Source of the DNA: Actinoallomurus bryophytorum
Lineage (GTDB): Bacteria; Actinomycetota; Actinomycetes; Streptosporangiales; Streptosporangiaceae
DNA: 64,000 nt
Assembly (NCBI RefSeq): GCF_006716425.1
Contig: NZ_VFOZ01000001.1
Location: 4,340,001-4,404,000, forward strand
Reading direction: 5' to 3'
Under the pieces are notes generated by a model, which saw only the letters and a list, made by a program, of their open reading frames with translations, made no database searches and was not told where the DNA came from. Positions 15,360-62,217 of the stretch are shown in pieces; the stretch's first letter is position 1, and each line of letters opens with the position of its first letter. The translations under genes and the position numbers were made by a program.

Positions 15360-15655
15360 TCCTACGGCCTGTCTCGAAGTCCTCGGCCGGAGTCCGCCCG
15401 CGTGGGGTCCGTCCGCGTGGGGTCCGTCCGCGTGGGGTCCGTCCGCGTGGGGTCCGTCCGCGTGGAGCCCACCCGCGTGGAGCCCACCCGCGTGGAGCCC
15501 ACCCGCGTGGAGCCCACCCGCCCGGGGGTGCCATCCCACTCTCATTGTCCAGCGGGAACAGCGGCGGGCGGAAGTAGAGCGGGGTTCTGTGGATAACCCC
15601 GGGTGGCGCCGCCCAGACGGCGCCACGGCAACAGCATGACTTTGAGACAGGACCC
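15360..15655. mobile_element. MITE-like dispersed repeat, copy 1 (intact)
   Basis: The ends carry inverted TGTCTCGAAGTC (15370-15381) and GACTTTGAGACA (15638-15649), 11 of 12 matching. The inside holds nine 15-bp tandem units and then a conserved core of about 110 bp. In the core, GGGGTT/AACCCC (15581-15600) encloses TGTGGATAA, a DnaA-box-like word, and TGGCGCCG/CGGCGCCA forms a second hairpin. A second, inverted copy at 50380-52035 is split by an IS110 element. There is no transposase gene, so it would be non-autonomous. It ends 2 bp before the stop codon of the hydrolase gene. Open frames across the tandem repeat are not credible genes. Confidence 0.7.
15392..15526 (+). repeat. Nine 15-bp tandem repeats
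   Basis: Units 1-5 read GTCCGTCCGCGTGGG (unit 1 has one change, unit 5 ends GGA). Units 6-9 read GCCCACCCGCGTGGA (the last ends CCCGGG). The array is perfectly periodic at 15 bp and shifts from one unit type to the other in the middle. Confidence 0.9.
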
Positions 15656-25979: not shown

Positions 25980-26681
25980 ATGCGCGTCGCGCTTTTCATC
26001 ACCTGCGTCAATGACACGCTCTTCCCCGGCACGGGGAAGGCGGTCGTTCGCCTGCTGGAGCGGCTCGGCTGCACCGTCGACTTCCCGGCGGAGCAGAGCT
26101 GCTGCGGCCAGATGCACTTCAACACCGGCTACCGCGACGACGCGAAGCCACTCGCGAGCCGTTTCGTCTCGACGTTCAGCGGCTACGAGGCCGTGGTCGT
26201 GCCGTCCGGCTCGTGCGCGGCGATGGTCCGCGAGTGGTATCCCTCACTCGGCATCTCACCGCCGGGCGGGGTCTTCGAGCTGACGGAGTTCCTCGTCGAC
26301 GTGCTCGGCGTGACCGATGTCGGCGCGTACTTCCCGCACACGGTGACCTACCACCCGACCTGCCACTCCCTGCGCTCCCTCAAGGTGGGCTCGCGCCCGC
26401 TGGACCTGCTCTCGGAGGTACGCGGCCTGACGCTGGTGCCGCTCGGCGGCGCGGAGGAGTGCTGTGGTTTCGGCGGGACGTTCTCGCTCAAGAACCCCGC
26501 GGTGTCGGCCGCGATGTGCTCGGACAAGGTGCGCAGCGTGCTGGACACCGGCGCCGAGGTGCTCTGCGCCGCCGACAACTCCTGCCTGATGCACATCGGC
26601 GGCGCGCTGTCGCGGCAGCGTACGGGCGTGCGGGTCATGCACCTGGCAGAGATCCTCGCGGCCACGGAGGGGGACACGTGA
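25980..26681 (+). CDS. lutA: L-lactate utilisation protein LutA (Fe-S protein)
   Basis: A 233-residue protein with two cysteine-rich CCG modules: SCCGQMH near residue 41 and ECCGFGGTF near 161, each preceded by further Cys (CVND, PTCHS, NSCLM). This is LutA/YkgE, part of the LutABC complex that oxidises L-lactate to pyruvate. Here it follows a pathway that yields lactate. Its TGA overlaps the GTG of a repeat-encoded mini-ORF. Confidence 0.92.
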   Translation: MRVALFITCVNDTLFPGTGKAVVRLLERLGCTVDFPAEQSCCGQMHFNTGYRDDAKPLASRFVSTFSGYEAVVVPSGSCAAMVREWYPSLGISPPGGVFELTEFLVDVLGVTDVGAYFPHTVTYHPTCHSLRSLKVGSRPLDLLSEVRGLTLVPLGGAEECCGFGGTFSLKNPAVSAAMCSDKVRSVLDTGAEVLCAADNSCLMHIGGALSRQRTGVRVMHLAEILAATEGDT

Positions 26682-26749
26682 CCGAGCGGAGCGAGGGAAC
26701 CGGAAGGCACAGCACCATGGTCGCCTCTCCGACGAAGGAGGCCCCGTGA
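26678..26749 (+). CDS. 23-codon mini-ORF of MIRU-like repeat, unit 1
   Basis: GTG-started ORF encoding VTERSEGTGRHSTMVASPTK then EAP. Its GTG overlaps the lutA stop (GTGA) and its own TGA overlaps the next GTG. The last codons carry GAAGGAGG, the ribosome-binding site of the next ORF. The peptide itself may have no role; the reading frame probably keeps ribosomes moving between lutA and lutB. Confidence 0.6.
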   Translation: MTERSEGTGRHSTMVASPTKEAP

Positions 26750-26813
26750 GCGAGCGGAGCGAGGGCACAGTCAGGCACAGCACTAGGTTCGCGCGCCCGA
26801 CGAAGGAGGCCTC
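26678..26813 (+). repeat. Tandem pair of 68-bp MIRU-like repeats in the lut operon
   Basis: Two units (26678-26745 and 26746-26813) fill the lutA-lutB gap exactly. Each begins GTGA(C/G)CGAGCGGAGCGAGGG, contains GGCACAGCAC and ends CGACGAAGGAGGCC. Start-to-start distance is 68 bp both times, which shifts the frame and restores a stop/start overlap. Related copies are at 55584-55836 and 62149-62217. Confidence 0.85.
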
Positions 26814-26817
26814 ATGA
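26746..26817 (+). CDS. 23-codon mini-ORF of MIRU-like repeat, unit 2
   Basis: Encodes VSERSEGTVRHSTRFARPTK then EAS. It starts at the GTG overlapping unit 1's stop and ends with a TGA overlapping the lutB ATG. It has the same length and layout as unit 1, with divergence mostly in the middle. Peptide function is doubtful; coupling is the likely role. Confidence 0.6.
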   Translation: MSERSEGTVRHSTRFARPTKEAS

Positions 26818-28208
26818 ACGCCTTTGTCGGGATGCCGAGTTTTCCGAAGGCGTCGTCGAAGTCGGTCTCGGACGCGCAGCTGCGGCACAACCTGCGCAAG
26901 GCCACCCACACGATCCGCGCCAAGCGCGCCCTCGTCGTCGACGAGCAGCCGGACTGGGCCGCCCTGCGCTCGGCCGGCGCCGCGATCAAGGACCGTACGC
27001 TCCGGCACCTGGACGTCTACCTCGAACGGCTGGAAGAGGCCGTGACGGCGGCGGGCGGCACGGTGCACTGGGCCGCCGACGCGGCCGAGGCCAACCGGAT
27101 CGTCACCGGCCTGGTGAAGGCCACCGGCGAGACCGAGGTCGTCAAGGTCAAGTCCATGGCCACCCAGGAGATCGACCTGAACTCCGCGCTAGAGGCCGAG
27201 GGCATCACGGCGTACGAGACCGACCTCGCGGAGCTGATCGTGCAGCTCGGCGACGACTGGCCCTCCCACATCCTGGTCCCGGCCATCCACCGGAACCGCG
27301 CGGAGATCCGCGAGATCTTCCTGTCGAAGATGGCGGCATGGGGCCGGCCCGCACCGGCGGACCTCAAGGACGACCCGCGCGCCCTGGCCGACGCCGCCCG
27401 GCTGCACCTGCGCGAACGCTTCCTGTCCGCGCGTGTGGGCATCTCGGGCGCCAACTTCGCCGTCGCCGAGACGGGCACCCTCGTCGTCCTGGAGTCCGAG
27501 GGCAACGGGCGGATGTGCCTCACGCTCCCCGAGACGCTGATCTCGGTGGTCGGCATCGAGAAGATCGTGCCGACCTGGCAGGACCTCGAGGTCTTCATGC
27601 AGCTGCTGCCGCGTTCGTCCACCGGTGAGCGGATGAACCCGTACACCTCGATGTGGACCGGCGCGACCGAGGGCCAGACGTTCCATCTCGTGCTCCTCGA
27701 CAACGGCCGCACGTCGGTGCTCGCGGACGAGGTCGGCCGTCAGGCGCTGCGCTGTATCCGCTGCTCGGCCTGCCTGAACGTCTGCCCGGTGTACGAACGG
27801 GCGGGCGGCCACGCGTACGGCTCGGTGTACCCGGGTCCGATCGGCGCGATCCTGACCCCGCAGCTGAAGGGGATGGCCGGTCCGCTGGAGGAGTCGCTGC
27901 CGTACGCCTCGACGCTCTGCGGCGCCTGCTACGACGTGTGCCCGGTCGCCATCAACATCCCCGAGGTGCTGCTCGACCTGCGCTCGAAGGTCGTGACCCG
28001 CGGACACCACGGCCAGCGCCTCGCGATGGGCGCGGCCCGGCGGGTGCTGGACTCGCCCCGCTGGCTGGCGGTGGCGCAGAACTCGGCGGGCCGCCTGCGA
28101 CACTGGACCCCGCGCCGCCTGCCCGGCCCGCTGTCGGCCTGGTCCGACACCCGAGACGTCCCCCGGCCCCCGAAGGAGTCCTTCCGCCAATGGTGGGCGA
28201 CCCGATGA
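26814..28208 (+). CDS. lutB: L-lactate utilisation protein LutB (Fe-S protein)
   Basis: A 464-residue LutB/YkgF protein. The LUD domain occupies about 60-300 (SGANFAVAETGTLVVLESEGNG), followed by two 4Fe-4S motifs, CIRCSACLNVCPVYE near 316 and CGACYDVCPVAINIPE near 370, and a C-terminal DUF3390-like tail. It carries electrons during L-lactate oxidation. ATG at 26814 has AAGGAGG from the repeat unit immediately upstream. ATGA overlap with lutC. Confidence 0.93.
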   Translation: MNAFVGMPSFPKASSKSVSDAQLRHNLRKATHTIRAKRALVVDEQPDWAALRSAGAAIKDRTLRHLDVYLERLEEAVTAAGGTVHWAADAAEANRIVTGLVKATGETEVVKVKSMATQEIDLNSALEAEGITAYETDLAELIVQLGDDWPSHILVPAIHRNRAEIREIFLSKMAAWGRPAPADLKDDPRALADAARLHLRERFLSARVGISGANFAVAETGTLVVLESEGNGRMCLTLPETLISVVGIEKIVPTWQDLEVFMQLLPRSSTGERMNPYTSMWTGATEGQTFHLVLLDNGRTSVLADEVGRQALRCIRCSACLNVCPVYERAGGHAYGSVYPGPIGAILTPQLKGMAGPLEESLPYASTLCGACYDVCPVAINIPEVLLDLRSKVVTRGHHGQRLAMGAARRVLDSPRWLAVAQNSAGRLRHWTPRRLPGPLSAWSDTRDVPRPPKESFRQWWATR

Positions 28209-50515: not shown

Positions 50516-51598
50516 TCAAGTGGCGGCTGGTAGCTGTTTGTTGGTGGTGTTTGTGCTGGTGAGGGCTTTGAAGAGTTCGCGTGCGAGGTAGCGTTTGAGG
50601 CAGCGGATGATCTCGGGTTTGGGTTTGCCTTGGCTGGTGCGGCGTTGGACGTAGGTTCGGGTTCGGGCGCAGTGGCTCATGCGGGTGATGGTGATCAGGT
50701 AGAGGGCGCGGTTGGCTTGGCGGTCTCCGCCGCGTGAGAGCCGGTGCCGGGTGGTCTTGCCACTGGAAGCAGGGATCGGGGCCACCCCGCACAGAGCGGC
50801 GAAGGCGGCTGGGGTGGTGAGGCGGTCGGGGTTGTCGCCGCAGGTGATCAGCAGCTGTGCGGCGGTCTCGACCCCGACGCCGTAAATGGCGAGCAGGTCG
50901 GGGCGGGTCTGGGTGATCAAGGCTTTCAGGTGCAGGTTGAGACCATCGATTTCGGTGGTCAGGTGCTGGTGGCGGTGGGCCAGCGCGCGGAGGGCGTGTT
51001 TGGTGGCGTGGAGCGGGTCGGTCAGGTCGGTGCCTGGGCGCAGCCGTGCGCATGCGCTGATCAGTGCCGGGGTGGGTTTGCCGGTGAGGTGTTCGCGAAG
51101 TTGTGCCGGTGCGGTGACCAGCACGGCTCGTAGTTCGTTGATGGCTGCGGTGCGGGCCTTGATGGCTCCGGTCCGGGTCAGGTGCAGCACCCGGATCGAT
51201 TCGGCGATCCCGTCGTTGCCTTTGGGCAGTGCGCGGGCGCGGCCGGCCAGCACCGCATCAGCGGCGGCATAAGCATCCAACGGATCGGACTTACCGACAC
51301 TGCGGCGCTGACGGCGGTCGGGCCGGTTCACCTCCACCACGGTGACACCTTGACCGCGCAGGTACCGGGTCAGGCCCGCTCCGTAGGAGCCGGTGCCCTC
51401 CACCCCGACCGCGTGGATCCGGCCGAAGCCTTCCATCCAGGCCAGCAACCGCGCATAGCCCTCAACCGTGGCGGGAAACTGCGCGTCCGCGATCCGGCCG
51501 CCGTTCATCAACTCCACCGCGGCGTGATGGGTGTCGTGGTGGGTGTCGACCCCACCCACGACCCGCCGCTTGTCCGGTCGCCTGCTCCTGCGTGCCAT
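50516..51598 (-). CDS. IS110-family transposase (DEDD recombinase)
   Basis: A 360-residue DEDD transposase. The RuvC-like domain has VGGVDTHHDTHHAAV (first Asp), GVEGTGSYGAGL (Glu) and GKSDPLDAYAAA (Asp pair). The C-terminal transposase_20 domain has AIYGVGVETAAQLLITCGDN, AFAALCGVAPIPASSG and RLSRGGDRQANRALY, with its conserved Ser. All key residues are present and the frame is intact, so the element may be active. Confidence 0.93.
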   Translation of the reverse strand: MARRSRRPDKRRVVGGVDTHHDTHHAAVELMNGGRIADAQFPATVEGYARLLAWMEGFGRIHAVGVEGTGSYGAGLTRYLRGQGVTVVEVNRPDRRQRRSVGKSDPLDAYAAADAVLAGRARALPKGNDGIAESIRVLHLTRTGAIKARTAAINELRAVLVTAPAQLREHLTGKPTPALISACARLRPGTDLTDPLHATKHALRALAHRHQHLTTEIDGLNLHLKALITQTRPDLLAIYGVGVETAAQLLITCGDNPDRLTTPAAFAALCGVAPIPASSGKTTRHRLSRGGDRQANRALYLITITRMSHCARTRTYVQRRTSQGKPKPEIIRCLKRYLARELFKALTSTNTTNKQLPAAT

Positions 51599-51640
51599 CC
51601 TGAACCTGCCAATCCTCGTGAGGGAAACGAGACGTGGCAC

Positions 51641-51721
51641 GCGCTGGGCCGGTGCATCGGACAGACCAGTGATGAGGCTCCTAGGCCGAGCTCTTATCAA
51701 GTCACGGCACCGGCCCAGCGC
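51641..51721 (-). ncRNA. Candidate bridge RNA region in the IS110 upstream end
   Basis: GCGCTGGGCCGGTGC (51641-51655) and GCACCGGCCCAGCGC (51707-51721) are perfect 15-bp inverted arms with a 51-nt loop, inside the 238-bp non-coding part upstream of the transposase. In IS110-group elements this end encodes a bridge RNA that pairs with target and donor DNA. The exact RNA limits and guide loops cannot be set from one copy. Confidence 0.45.
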
Positions 51722-51837
51722 ACACCCCGCAGACACACCAGCACGGCCGACAGATCCGGGGAAAGACACTCACTCACGAGGTCGGGCGGGCAAAGAGCCA
51801 AACCACACCAGCATCGCCTGCCCCACCATTCTCACTG

Positions 51838-52000
51838 GCGGGTGGGCTCCAGGGGGGTGGGCTCCAGGGGGTGGGCTCCAGGGGGGTGGGCTCCACGACG
51901 GGGCGGGCTCCACGACGGGGCGGGCTCCACGACGGGGCGGGCTCCACGACGGGGCGGGCTCCACGACGGGGCAGGACCCACGACGGGGCGCGGCTCAGGT
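51838..52000. repeat. Tandem repeat array of MITE-like copy 2
   Basis: About four units close to GGGTGGGCTCCAGGG (13-16 bp, uneven) are followed by five units of GGGGCGGGCTCCACGAC (17 bp) and degenerate ones. They correspond to the 15-bp array of copy 1 on the opposite strand but differ in unit length, so each array has evolved separately. Confidence 0.85.
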
Positions 52001-54519: not shown

Positions 54520-55587
54520 CTACGTGCAATCAAGGTGCGACGATGCACGTTGGTAAACCTCGTCCAAAGTCACCGATAGTGACCTCGGACTGCAACGGTC
54601 CGCCACCCGCTTCAGCGCCGCGCGGCCCATTCTGCGCGCTTCGGCCGGATTATCCAGAAGATATGTGATCGCGTCGGCGAGCTGTGCCGGATCGCCCGGC
54701 GCGGTGAGAAGACCCGTCTCACCGGCGCGGATGATGTCCGGGCCGCTCGGCGCGACGGTCCCCACCAGCGGCACGCCGGCCGCGGCGGCCTGGACGGCGG
54801 CGTACGGCACTCCCTCGTGCCGGCCGGTCATCGCGAGCACGTCGAAGCCGGGCAGCAGGTCGGCCACGTCGTCGCGCCGCCCCAGCCAGATCAGCCGCTC
54901 GCCGCCGACGCGCTCGGTGAACCTCTGGCCGAGCCGTCCCGGCAGCCGCGCCGCGGGGCCGCCGTCGCCGTCCGCCCAGACGCCGTAGACGCTCGAGGGC
55001 AGCCGGGCGATGGCCCGCGCGAACACGTCCGGCCGCCGCGCACCGCGCGCCGGACCGATCCCCCCGACCACCTGTGCGCCCAGGGGAAGCCCGAGCAGCC
55101 GCCGGGCGCGGGTACGCGTGCCCGCCAGGTTCGGCAGGTCCACGGCCGGCCAGATCGCCCGCAGCCGCCCCGGTGACGCCAGGCCGAGCCGGAGGGCGCG
55201 CGAGGCGGTACGTGCGCCCACGGCGAGGAACACGTCGGTGTGCCGTGCGGCCCGGCGCTCGGCGAGGGTGGGGCCGGGTGGGGCGTACCAGGTGTGGACG
55301 ATCCGCGGGACGCCGGCACGTACGGCGGCGAACCGCCCGGCCGTCCCCACGTGGGTGTGGGCGATGTCGTACCCGCCGCCCATGGCCTCGGCCAGCGCGC
55401 GCGGCCCGTGCGCGTGGATCACCGCGATCCCGGACTCCCGTGCCCACGCGTCGAGGGCGCCCGGCTCACCGGCGACCACGGTGTGCGCGTACGCCTCCGG
55501 GTCGAGCGCGAGCGCCGCGGTCAGCGCGGCGCGCGCCGGTCCTCCCTCGAACCGGTCGAGCACCAGCGCGACGCGCACGGGAGTCAC
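54520..55587 (-). CDS. GT4-type glycosyltransferase
   Basis: A 355-residue GT-B glycosyltransferase. The N-terminal half has VALVLDRFEGGPARAAL, IAHTHVGTAGRF and IVHTWYAP, and the C-terminal half has VVGGIGPARGARRPD, LIWLGRRDDV and RHEGVPYAAVQAAAAGVPLVGT. The second Glu of the EX7E motif is Gln here. It probably adds a sugar to a polysaccharide or lipid carrier. GTG start overlaps the third repeat-encoded ORF and is thereby coupled to the upstream epimerase-like gene. Confidence 0.85.
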   Translation of the reverse strand: MTPVRVALVLDRFEGGPARAALTAALALDPEAYAHTVVAGEPGALDAWARESGIAVIHAHGPRALAEAMGGGYDIAHTHVGTAGRFAAVRAGVPRIVHTWYAPPGPTLAERRAARHTDVFLAVGARTASRALRLGLASPGRLRAIWPAVDLPNLAGTRTRARRLLGLPLGAQVVGGIGPARGARRPDVFARAIARLPSSVYGVWADGDGGPAARLPGRLGQRFTERVGGERLIWLGRRDDVADLLPGFDVLAMTGRHEGVPYAAVQAAAAGVPLVGTVAPSGPDIIRAGETGLLTAPGDPAQLADAITYLLDNPAEARRMGRAALKRVADRCSPRSLSVTLDEVYQRASSHLDCT

Positions 55588-55700
55588 GTGACCTCCTCTT
55601 CCACCGGCGGTGCGAGCAGGCGCTCGCCGCTTCGCTCGGTCATGCGGCCAGTGGCGATCGGGGGACTGTGCCTTCTGGTTCCCTCGCTCCGCTCGGTCAC
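55584..55700 (-). CDS. 38-codon mini-ORF of MIRU-like repeat (fused unit)
   Basis: It encodes VTERSEGTRRHSPPIATGRM and continues TERSGERLLAPPVEEEVT. So one unit runs in frame into a second partial copy. Its TGA overlaps the glycosyltransferase GTG, and GAGGAGG near its end is the SD for that gene. Confidence 0.6.
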   Translation of the reverse strand: MTERSEGTRRHSPPIATGRMTERSGERLLAPPVEEEVT

Positions 55701-55768
55701 GGGCCCTCCTGCGTCGGGGGAGTGACCGGGGGACTGTGCCTTCTGGTTCCCTCGCTTCGCTCGGTCAC
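55697..55768 (-). CDS. 23-codon mini-ORF of MIRU-like repeat
   Basis: It encodes VTERSEGTRRHSPPVTPPTQ then EGP. It is linked by GTGA overlaps on both sides. Its sequence differs from the preceding unit by very few bases, which points to recent duplication by slippage or unequal crossing-over. Confidence 0.6.
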   Translation of the reverse strand: MTERSEGTRRHSPPVTPPTQEGP

Positions 55769-55836
55769 GGGCCCTCCCGCGTCGGGGGAGTGACCGGGGG
55801 ACTGTGCCTTCTGGTTCCCTCGCTTCGCTCGGTCAC
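55765..55836 (-). CDS. 23-codon mini-ORF of MIRU-like repeat
   Basis: It encodes VTERSEGTRRHSPPVTPPTR then EGP. Its GTG overlaps the stop of the epimerase-like gene (GTGA). The first 12 residues match the lut-operon units (V-T/S-ERSEGT-x-RHS). Confidence 0.6.
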   Translation of the reverse strand: MTERSEGTRRHSPPVTPPTREGP

Positions 55837-57224
55837 GGGCGTTCCTCCTGCGGCCGGTACTCCGGCAGGATGCGGCGCATCAGCGCGCGTACTTCGTCGT
55901 CGGCGTCACGCGCGGCCGCGTCGAGCAGCGCGGTGAGGGGTTCGTTCCGCCAGTGCGAGGGCATGGTGCCGCGCGTCGCGTAGATGAGGGGGTGCGCCGT
56001 ACGTGTCATCGCCTCCGAGTCGGCGAAGGACCGGGCGCGCAGCCGCTCGCCCGGTCCCAGGCCGGTGAACCGGATCGTCACGTCGGGCAGGCGCAGCCCG
56101 TCGACGAGCGCGCCCACCACGCCGAGCACCGAGGACGGCGGCCCGGTGTCGAGCGCGAACGTCTCCGCGTCCTCGGCCATCGCGGTGGCCTCCAGGACGA
56201 GTTCGGCCGCCTCCCGCGCGCTCATGAGATGCCGCGCGGCGTCGGGGTGGGTGACGGTGACCGGCTGTCCGGCCGCGAGCTGGCCGGCGACCGCGCCGAG
56301 GGGCGACGTGCCCGACCCCAGCACGCTGCCGACCCGTACCGCCGCGAAGCAGGTCTGCCCGCCCGCCTCCGCCTGCAGCACCAGCTCCGAGAGCCGGCGG
56401 GTGGCGCCGAGCACGGAGACGGGCTCGGCGGCCTGGTCGGTGGAGACCAGCACGAACCGCTCCACGTCCTGGCGTACGGCCGCGCGTACGAGGTTGCGCG
56501 TGCCGAGCACGTTGGCACGCACCGCCGCGCACGGCTGCCGTTCCAGCCACCGGGGATCGTGGTTGAACCCGGCCGCGTGCAGCACCAGCTCGGGGCGTAC
56601 CTCCTCGAACAGCGCGTCGACCCGGGAGGCGTCCCTGATGTCGACGACCGCCGGCCGGCCGGTCTCGCTCTCGGCGGTCAGCCGGGCCAGGGCCTTCTCG
56701 TCGTTGTCGAGCTGGATGAGCGCCGCCGGGCGCAGGGTGCGCAGCCGGCGGCACAGCCGGGCGCCGACCGTGCCGCACGCCCCGGTGACCAGGACGCGGC
56801 GCCCGGACACGAACCGCCGCGCCCGGATGCTCGCCACCGCCAGCTCGTCGCGGCCGAGCAGCCGCAGCGGATCGGTGCCGGCGGCGGCCCCCGGCGGCAC
56901 GTAGCGTACGTCCAGGCCGGCCTCGGCGACCCGGCCGACCAGGCTCGCGACGCGTACGGGCGGCAGCGACGGGATCGCGACGACGACGACCTGGGTGCGG
57001 GCGGGCCAGGTCGCGGCCGTGATGTCGACGGTGCCGCCGAGCACGGGCAGGCCGGACACCGTCTCACCGGTGAGGGCGTCGTCGAGGAACCCGACCGGAG
57101 TCAGGTCGCCCTCGGCCTCCAGCAGCGCGCGCGCCAGAGCGCGGCCGGCGTCGCCGGCCCCGATGATCACGGCGCGGACGCCGGAGCAGCGGCCCTCGCC
57201 GCCGTGGCATCTCCGCCTTCGCAA
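55833..57224 (-). CDS. CapD-like NDP-sugar epimerase/dehydratase family protein with altered active site
   Basis: A 463-residue soluble protein. The N-terminal CoA-binding-like domain (about 15-135, VRAVIIGAGDAGRALARAL) precedes an extended SDR domain (about 140-420) with VLVTGACGTVGARLCRRL and HAAGFNHDPR. In CapD/FlaA1 enzymes the active site reads STDKA...MGA(T/S)KR; here it is STDQAAEP...LGATRRLSE, so the catalytic Lys and the later Lys are changed. The membrane segment of large CapD proteins is missing. TTG at 57224 with GAGG upstream is the only start that covers the first domain. It is coupled to the glycosyltransferase through the repeat array. Confidence 0.78.
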   Translation of the reverse strand: MRRRRCHGGEGRCSGVRAVIIGAGDAGRALARALLEAEGDLTPVGFLDDALTGETVSGLPVLGGTVDITAATWPARTQVVVVAIPSLPPVRVASLVGRVAEAGLDVRYVPPGAAAGTDPLRLLGRDELAVASIRARRFVSGRRVLVTGACGTVGARLCRRLRTLRPAALIQLDNDEKALARLTAESETGRPAVVDIRDASRVDALFEEVRPELVLHAAGFNHDPRWLERQPCAAVRANVLGTRNLVRAAVRQDVERFVLVSTDQAAEPVSVLGATRRLSELVLQAEAGGQTCFAAVRVGSVLGSGTSPLGAVAGQLAAGQPVTVTHPDAARHLMSAREAAELVLEATAMAEDAETFALDTGPPSSVLGVVGALVDGLRLPDVTIRFTGLGPGERLRARSFADSEAMTRTAHPLIYATRGTMPSHWRNEPLTALLDAAARDADDEVRALMRRILPEYRPQEERP

Positions 57225-61557: not shown

Positions 61558-62148
61558 TTACTGGGGGTTCCGCCACATAGGCCACACGCGCGGACCGCCG
61601 CCGGGTACGCGGATCTCGCCGGTCACCCGGAAGCCGAAGCGCTCGTAGTAGGAGACGTTGCTCTCCTTGGAGGACTCCAGGTACGCCGGGAACCGCCGGT
61701 CGTCACAGCGGGACAGCCGCGACCGCAGCAGGGCCGAGCCGAGCCCCCGGCCCTGGGCGGACGGATCGGTGCCCAGGACGGCCAGGTACCAGTGCGGCTC
61801 GATCGGGTGCTCGCGTTCGATCTCGCCGAGCCCGTACATGACGGTGAAGGTCCTGGTGCCCAGCACCCGCAGCAGGCCGGGGAGCTGACGGAGCTGGGTG
61901 GCGAGCGAGATCCTCCACCGGCCCGGCGGATCCCAGAGCGCGCCGGCCAGGATCCGTCCGTCCTGTTCGGCCAGCTCGCTGACGCCGTTCGGCAGCCGGG
62001 CGTGGTGGAGCAGCAGCCCGAACATGGCGGCCATCCGCTCCGGGTGCCGGGGGAACATCCACAGCCAGACCGGGTCGTCGGCGAAGGCACGGCCGAGCAC
62101 CGCCGCCAGGGAGTCGGCATCGGGGGCGGTGACGTCGCGGACCTTCAC
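61558..62148 (-). CDS. GNAT-family acetyltransferase
   Basis: A 196-residue GNAT protein. It begins VKVRDVTAPDADSLAAVL, has LAVLGTDPSAQGRGLGSALL (acetyl-CoA motif A) and ESSKESNVSYYERFGFRV. GTG at 62148 is set by GAAGGAGG 5 nt upstream. The 23 codons before it, from ATG 62217, are in frame and derive from a MIRU-like repeat, so a longer protein of 219 residues is possible. It is divergent from the holin-like gene. Confidence 0.88.
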   Translation of the reverse strand: MKVRDVTAPDADSLAAVLGRAFADDPVWLWMFPRHPERMAAMFGLLLHHARLPNGVSELAEQDGRILAGALWDPPGRWRISLATQLRQLPGLLRVLGTRTFTVMYGLGEIEREHPIEPHWYLAVLGTDPSAQGRGLGSALLRSRLSRCDDRRFPAYLESSKESNVSYYERFGFRVTGEIRVPGGGPRVWPMWRNPQ

Positions 62149-62217
62149 GAGTCCTCCTTCGCCGGAGGGGGTGGCCGAGCGCGCTGGGTCTCCGGTTCGC
62201 TCGCTCGGCTCACTCAT
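62149..62217 (-). repeat. MIRU-like unit joined in frame to a GNAT gene
   Basis: From ATG 62217 the frame reads MSEPSERTGDPARSATPSGE then GGL before the GNAT GTG: exactly 23 codons (69 bp), one base longer than the coupled units. It keeps the M-S/T-E-x-S-E-x-T start and the GAAGGAGG end. The extra base (or base-pair drift) removes the stop/start overlap and makes an N-terminal extension possible. Confidence 0.6.

Follow-up and report, generated by a model that had tools for sequence, protein, structure and literature searches.

A MIRU-like mobile element, probably acting as a translational coupler, forms the repeat array before a glycosyltransferase gene of Actinoallomurus bryophytorum

What is the short tandem array that separates an epimerase-like gene from a glycosyltransferase gene in Actinoallomurus bryophytorum, how did it arise and what may it do there? 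The array is found in a window of 64,000 nt (the whole stretch of DNA analysed) and consists of four head-to-tail units on the minus strand, of 68, 68, 57 and 56 bp, in which every joint reads RTGA. The gene upstream encodes a nucleotide-sugar epimerase/dehydratase (55833..57224, minus strand; Polysacc_synt_2/Epimerase, E 1.8e-63), with its TGA stop within the first GTGA, and the gene downstream a group 1 glycosyltransferase (54520..55587, minus strand; E 3.4e-19), and these domain matches agree with the functions proposed in the first-pass annotation. Unit 1 (55769..55836, 68 bp) has a GTG start that overlaps the epimerase stop as GTGA, a mini-ORF reading VTERSEGTRRHSPPVTPPTREGP followed by a stop (55836-55765), and a GGAGG at 55777-55773, 4 nt 5′ of the next RTGA, whereas unit 2 (55701..55768, 68 bp), which matches unit 1 at 67 of 68 positions, has the mini-ORF VTERSEGTRRHSPPVTPPTQEGP, also with its stop (55768-55697), and a GGAGG at 55709-55705. 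Unit 3 (55644..55700) is truncated to 57 bp, has lost its SD tail and is fused in frame to unit 4 (55588..55643), a degenerate copy of 56 bp that begins ATGACCGAGCGAAGCGGCG, matches our covariance model at E 0.155, which is weak alone, and has its own GGAGG (55596-55592) 4 nt 5′ of the glycosyltransferase GTGA. The fusion yields a 38-codon ORF (55700-55584, minus strand), whose TGA overlaps the glycosyltransferase GTG. Units 1, 2 and 4 share a mini-cistron layout with GGAGG.

This anatomy largely confirms the earlier description of three units starting 68 bp apart (at 55836, 55768 and 55700), two of them almost identical and the third joined to a partial copy. The statement that each joint is GTGA holds at 55836, 55768, 55700 and 55587, but where unit 3 meets unit 4 (55643), inside the fused ORF, the joint is ATGA. 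In Tandem Repeats Finder the array gave a period of 68 with 98% matches and a score of 350, the top score in the window, and the window contains 11 occurrences of the 18-bp core of the repeat, where 0.79 would be expected; shuffles and a reversed-pattern control rule out chance or low complexity as its source. No curated Rfam family matched in the window at gathering scores, and a riboswitch or leader family was rejected on this basis. Two further GC-rich tandem arrays of the window are unrelated to the element, one at 51840-51996 (17-bp period, TRF score 193), adjoining an IS110-family transposase (50516-51769), and another at 15389-15521 (15/45-bp period, TRF score 182).

The first-pass annotation left out a genome-wide family, including two further sites in the window. 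The first of these (26678-26817, plus strand) carries two 68-bp units, one (26678..26745) beginning at the stop of the upstream ORF and the other (26746..26813) running up to the ATGA with which a LutB-like gene (26814-28208) starts, and the other site is a diverged copy of a 69-bp class on the minus strand (62145..62217; genome 4402145-4402217, E 3.2e-10), 5′ of an ORF at 61558-62148. In the whole genome (9.47 Mb, 3 contigs), the 18-bp core gave 53 matches and the reversed pattern 2. A covariance model based on 26 units, with which the best 150 candidates were scored, so that copy counts are lower bounds, found at least 98 matches, at least 78 of them at E<=0.001, and this Actinoallomurus genome contains about 80-100 dispersed copies of the element.

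All eight Actinoallomurus genomes, including those of A. soli, A. iriomotensis, A. spadix and A. purpureus, carry between 9 and 122 copies each. The element is also present in Nonomuraea, Streptosporangium, Planobispora, Planomonospora, Thermocatellispora and Microtetraspora, as well as in Actinomadura, Actinopolymorpha, Flexivirga and Leekyejoonella, and across the class its head motif is patchy (30 of 247 genomes, with 1 reversed-control match over the whole set). Tandem heads spaced 77, 80, 81 and 107 bp in four other-family genomes (G135, G113, G178 and G115, respectively) represent other length classes. The pattern was also seen in two MAG contigs assigned to the distant taxa Chitinophagales (L184) and Acidimicrobiales (L208), which may reflect mis-binning or horizontal spread. 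Neither the phage nor the plasmid collection contained any match to the element, and carriage by phages or plasmids was rejected.

A complete unit of 68 bp runs RTGA-SCGAGCGNAGCGAGSGAAYC, about 28 variable nt, CCGACGAAGGAGG and 4 nt up to the next RTGA, and the consensus of 131 distinct 68-bp units gives its beginning as RTGA SCGAGCGNAGCGAGS GAAYC. Read from RTG, the full unit is a 23-codon ORF (typically MTERSEG..KHS.LVTPPTKEG.), whose start codon overlaps the upstream stop and whose TGA lies inside the next RTGA, with GGAGG 4 nt before the next RTG. Because of this ORF and the position of its GGAGG, the full unit can be regarded as a predicted self-contained mini-cistron that bears the ribosome-binding site of the next gene. 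The upstream coding frame ends at the TGA of the unit in 109 of 130 units with a defined joint (P 2e-32), and of 159 downstream starts, 148 are ATGA or GTGA.

The lengths of the units point the same way. An untranslated spacer could have any length modulo 3, yet among 215 distinct units the joint-to-joint length leaves a remainder of 2, which gives the stop/start overlap, in 162, of 0, an in-frame fusion to what follows, in 50, and of 1 in only 3; these units share ancestry and are not fully independent, yet many distinct lengths (50 to 95) comply. When units of 68 bp, the ancestral length, are set aside (n=84 left), the three classes count 31, 50 and 3, the last departing from one third at P 2e-11. 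An overlapping xTGA ends 159 of the 162 distinct units of remainder 2, and no in-frame stop interrupts the body of any of the 131 68-bp units, whereas 15 and 23 of them contain stops when the two remaining frames are read. This bias in length, together with the lack of body stops in full-length units, argues that the reading frame of the unit is under selection. The leader peptide is not clearly conserved at the protein level, and the conservation is that of the nucleotides. About a quarter of the units continue in frame into the gene downstream, which they extend at the N-terminus instead of forming a separate cistron. Tail-less heads fused in frame to genes were also noted in the same genome at L048, L050 and L029 (each near 2500), L047 (near 6584) and L007 (near 2511), where the encoded proteins, a peptide-synthetase-like one among them, begin with MTERSEG- or MSERSE-type sequences, and annotation pipelines probably take such starts as native.

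Comparison of orthologous junctions shows that the element is mobile. Between korA and korB, the A. bryophytorum genome reads ...AGCTC, then the insert ATGAGCGAGCGAAGCG...GGAGGACTC, then ATGAGCGATCCC..., where the seven congeners read ...CTCATGA..., that is, an exact 68-bp insertion facing a plain ATGA overlap in 7 of 7; since all seven congeners are without the insertion, 68 bp were gained precisely at the ATGA. Between nuoM and nuoN there are two units here (56 + 68), one in the congener G006 and none in the six others, the empty sites being a plain ...CGATGAT... overlap in five congeners and a nearby variant in A. iriomotensis (G003). At the epimerase-glycosyltransferase junction, A. iriomotensis has, in place of the four units found here, a degenerate head and three units that belong to a different subfamily, G004 has a fused head remnant and G006 no unit or a trace; the last was dropped as a clean empty site, as its ATGACCGACGGAGCG start may be a decayed head. 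In these three comparisons units can be seen to have been gained, lost, multiplied in tandem and eroded into N-terminal fusions, with arrays homogenised within a species and differing between species. Of the earlier suggestions, recent unit gain, with recent homogenisation inside the array as an alternative, and a variable copy number are supported, the latter between species, at this junction and at nuoM-nuoN (2/1/0).

At the insertion junctions R1 equals R69 (Fisher P 6e-11 in units without a neighbour), and the junction bases at offsets -1, 0, 1 and 5 match above expectation (z 2.8-7.1). Either the element chooses sites similar to its own ends, or part of the target is duplicated on insertion, as these matches suggest. 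A fixed 7-bp target-site duplication was unsupported, as the G006 nuoM-nuoN insertion has only ATGA in common. The idea that the match arises from a downstream start that is itself an old element remnant was rejected, since no such match is seen at the variable positions 12, 19 and 23.

The 5′ end of the element forms a covarying hairpin (GAGCGNAGCGAG), for which RNAalifold, unprompted, proposed the pairs R1-Y23, T2-A22, S5-S19, C6-G18, G9-C15 and C10-G14, with G.A/A.G steps between the pairs and a GNA loop. In the larger set, pair 5-19 (C-G/G-C) has the highest corrected mutual information and 1-23 (A-T/G-C) comes next among the non-adjacent pairs that do not involve the variable middle, and both change in the Watson-Crick sense. 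The A1 covariation score is 0.240, as compared to 0.122 +/- 0.021 in shuffles, none of 500 of which reach it (relatedness not removed). In thermodynamic folding with standard energy rules the 5′ hairpin gains no advantage over shuffles, so that only covariation supports it. A CCTCC-GGAGG hairpin that would hide the SD and act as a coupling switch looked attractive in the window and in the A. bryophytorum genome, but was discarded as the pairing shows no covariation and decays outside the genus. A guide-RNA-like recognition of the target by Y23/S19 was also rejected, because these bases follow the element's own 5′ end when element and target differ: among the units whose R1 and R69 disagree, Y23 goes with R1 19 times and with R69 4 times.

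Taken together, we consider it highly likely that copies of a small MIRU-like mobile element, acting as a translational coupler, have stacked up locally to form the array. The direct observations on the element behind this reading are its anatomy, dispersal, precise insertion as compared to empty sites, frame constraint, hairpin covariation and between-species differences in copy number. It inserts precisely at RTGA, the 4-nt overlap of the stop of one gene with the start of the next, in such a way that the upstream gene still stops at the first RTGA and the downstream gene still starts at the last; a putative enzyme recognising the 5′ hairpin may be responsible for the movement. At the junction studied here, ribosomes finishing the epimerase would reinitiate at the overlapping GTG and translate each mini-cistron in turn (mini-ORF 1, mini-ORF 2 and the 38-codon ORF), and the internal GGAGG and stop/start overlap would pass them on to the GTG of the glycosyltransferase. 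Translation of the mini-ORFs is suggested by the frame bias, and the ribosomes would presumably be delivered by reinitiation rather than by fresh initiation. Overlapping stop/start codons are known to couple translation through termination-reinitiation (PMC6728339; review PMC12548453). The insertion would thus be nearly harmless and would spread, the element being tolerated because coupling is preserved.

The element could also be an inert insertion, a neutral mobile unit whose mini-ORF is a by-product of the choice of RTGA as target and whose coupling only spares the host gene. The patchy gain and loss between species, the decay into N-terminal fusions and the lack of clear constraint at the protein level all fit such a unit, and what has to be set against it, the frame bias and the conserved SD, shows only selection against disruption. 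We hold this possible, with confidence well under even, and it is not opposed to the mobile coupler. Quite different is the view of the first-pass annotation, a locus-specific minisatellite in which an envelope-sugar spacer changes by slippage and tunes glycosyltransferase expression. The near-identity of neighbouring units and the different unit numbers at this junction between species would be expected from it, but the unit also stands alone at dozens of other, unrelated gene junctions, congeners show precise empty sites, and slippage accounts at most for the growth of an array, not for dispersal. Moreover, copies also precede nuoN, korB, hemB and lutB-like genes, as well as ABC-transporter, anti-sigma and regulator genes, so that specificity for an envelope-sugar operon is not supported, and the unit lengths hold the frame that gives a stop/start overlap or an in-frame fusion, so that a slipping spacer is not supported either. 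We regard this mechanism as very unlikely and replace it with a mobile translational coupler found throughout the genome.

REP elements and their RAYTs offer another precedent, since REPs are likewise small, dispersed hairpins whose target is short and fixed. By analogy, a Y1 (IS200/IS605-type) transposase could act in trans on the hairpin of the element and move it as single-stranded DNA. Its small, non-coding size, conserved 5′ hairpin and fixed 4-nt target, together with a guide-like foot (GAAY) facing RTGA, recall such systems, but the element sits at start codons, not outside genes, and the behaviour of Y23 indicates an internal stem and not a target guide. Moreover, no Y1_Tnp domain (PF01797) was found in the A. 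bryophytorum genome nor in 5 of the 7 congeners, among them A. soli (G001, 75 copies) and G004 (48 copies), and because this genome lacks a Y1 transposase a RAYT-type mover is unlikely. As for a family of regulatory leader peptides, that is, attenuators sensing an amino acid or an antibiotic, the element does provide short leader ORFs 5′ of genes with an SD near a hairpin, and leader genes near structural genes are common in actinobacteria (PMC4833913). However, the units show no run of regulatory codons and no Rfam match, their downstream genes have no common pathway, they lie mostly inside operons and not at the operon 5′ end, and tandem copies stand in series, which leaves this explanation extremely unlikely.

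A last question is what the mobile coupler may mean beyond this genome. In the open PMC papers searched in full text, there was no report of MIRU-like elements outside mycobacteria and nothing relevant on the core sequence, and the papers found gave no account of how MIRUs move or what their mini-ORFs do. With confidence slightly short of even, we propose that MIRUs and the present element form two branches of one actinobacterial superfamily, whose members would be hairpins with tandem G.A mismatches and a GNA triloop that insert at start codons. A putative recombinase or nuclease, acting in trans, would move them by reading the hairpin and the RTGA overlap, and they would be tolerated as self-contained translational couplers. 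With clean empty sites and actinomycete hosts that can be cultured, this second, abundant family puts the target rule, the mobiliser and any effect on downstream expression within reach of experiments. The family is also a source of mis-annotated gene starts, since MTERSEG- or MSERSER- N-termini in these genomes often represent the element and not the native protein.

Among known systems, leader genes and natural uORF coupling (PMC4833913, PMC6728339) resemble the element in having a short ORF that ends at the next start, and delivery of ribosomes by termination-reinitiation is expected in both; leader genes and uORFs, however, are unrelated one-off ORFs, whereas the element is one repeated mobile sequence. 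Bicistronic design (BCD) cassettes (PMC10367133) are alike in that a short first cistron holds the SD of the second, with stop and start adjacent or overlapping, but they are engineered, and the element would be their natural mobile counterpart. Its many copies would provide high-GC hosts with ready-made bicistronic couplers of natural origin.

The closest parallel is that of the MIRUs, which underlie tuberculosis strain typing and whose insertion sites were reportedly given as DTGA by Supply et al. in 1997. A MIRU-like pattern was searched in 198 genomes of one genus of the class, which we take to be Mycobacterium, and matched 94 of them, with up to 53 copies and none for the reversed control; the mycobacterial loci read RTGA...CGACGATGCAGAGCGNAGCGATGAGGAGGAG...RTGA. 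MIRU-like arrays with a spacing of 50-53 bp were also noted in other species of what is presumably the same genus (L272-L301), where all three frames are present, unlike the strict frame rule of Actinoallomurus. According to a review (PMC12548453), MIRUs are mobile and insert into start codons, with -4 coupling. Like the Actinoallomurus element, they are short, dispersed and apparently mobile, lie at RTGA stop/start overlaps in the orientation of the operon, have GGAGG before the next start, form tandem arrays of variable number and share a GAGCGNAGCGA core with variable N and a CGACGA...GGAGG tail. The comparison with MIRUs made in the first-pass annotation was therefore well founded, given the common RTGA target sites, coupled mini-ORF, core and SD tail.

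The two are nevertheless built differently, as the GAGCGNAGCGA core, CGACGA and GGAGG are common to the element and the mycobacterial consensus, but the order and the remaining sequence differ. In MIRUs the core lies between CGACGA and GGAGG near the 3′ end, whereas in Actinoallomurus it is the 5′ end itself and contains the RTGA, with about 30 variable nt before CCGACGAAGGAGG. The outer stem pairs are CA/TG in MIRUs and SC/GS in the element, the tandem spacing is 50-53 bp in mycobacterial loci as compared to 68-69 bp, and the hosts are Streptosporangiales plus scattered other actinobacteria and not mycobacteria only; the host genus here is Actinoallomurus and not Mycobacterium, in which the MIRU sequence family proper occurs, though the element may or may not belong to that family by sequence. 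As to its kind, it is dispersed in many copies, inserted at RTGA overlaps along the direction of translation with an overlapping small ORF, mobile by its occupied and empty sites, and variable in tandem copy number, in this case between species. The element works like a MIRU and is of the same kind, in another actinobacterial order.
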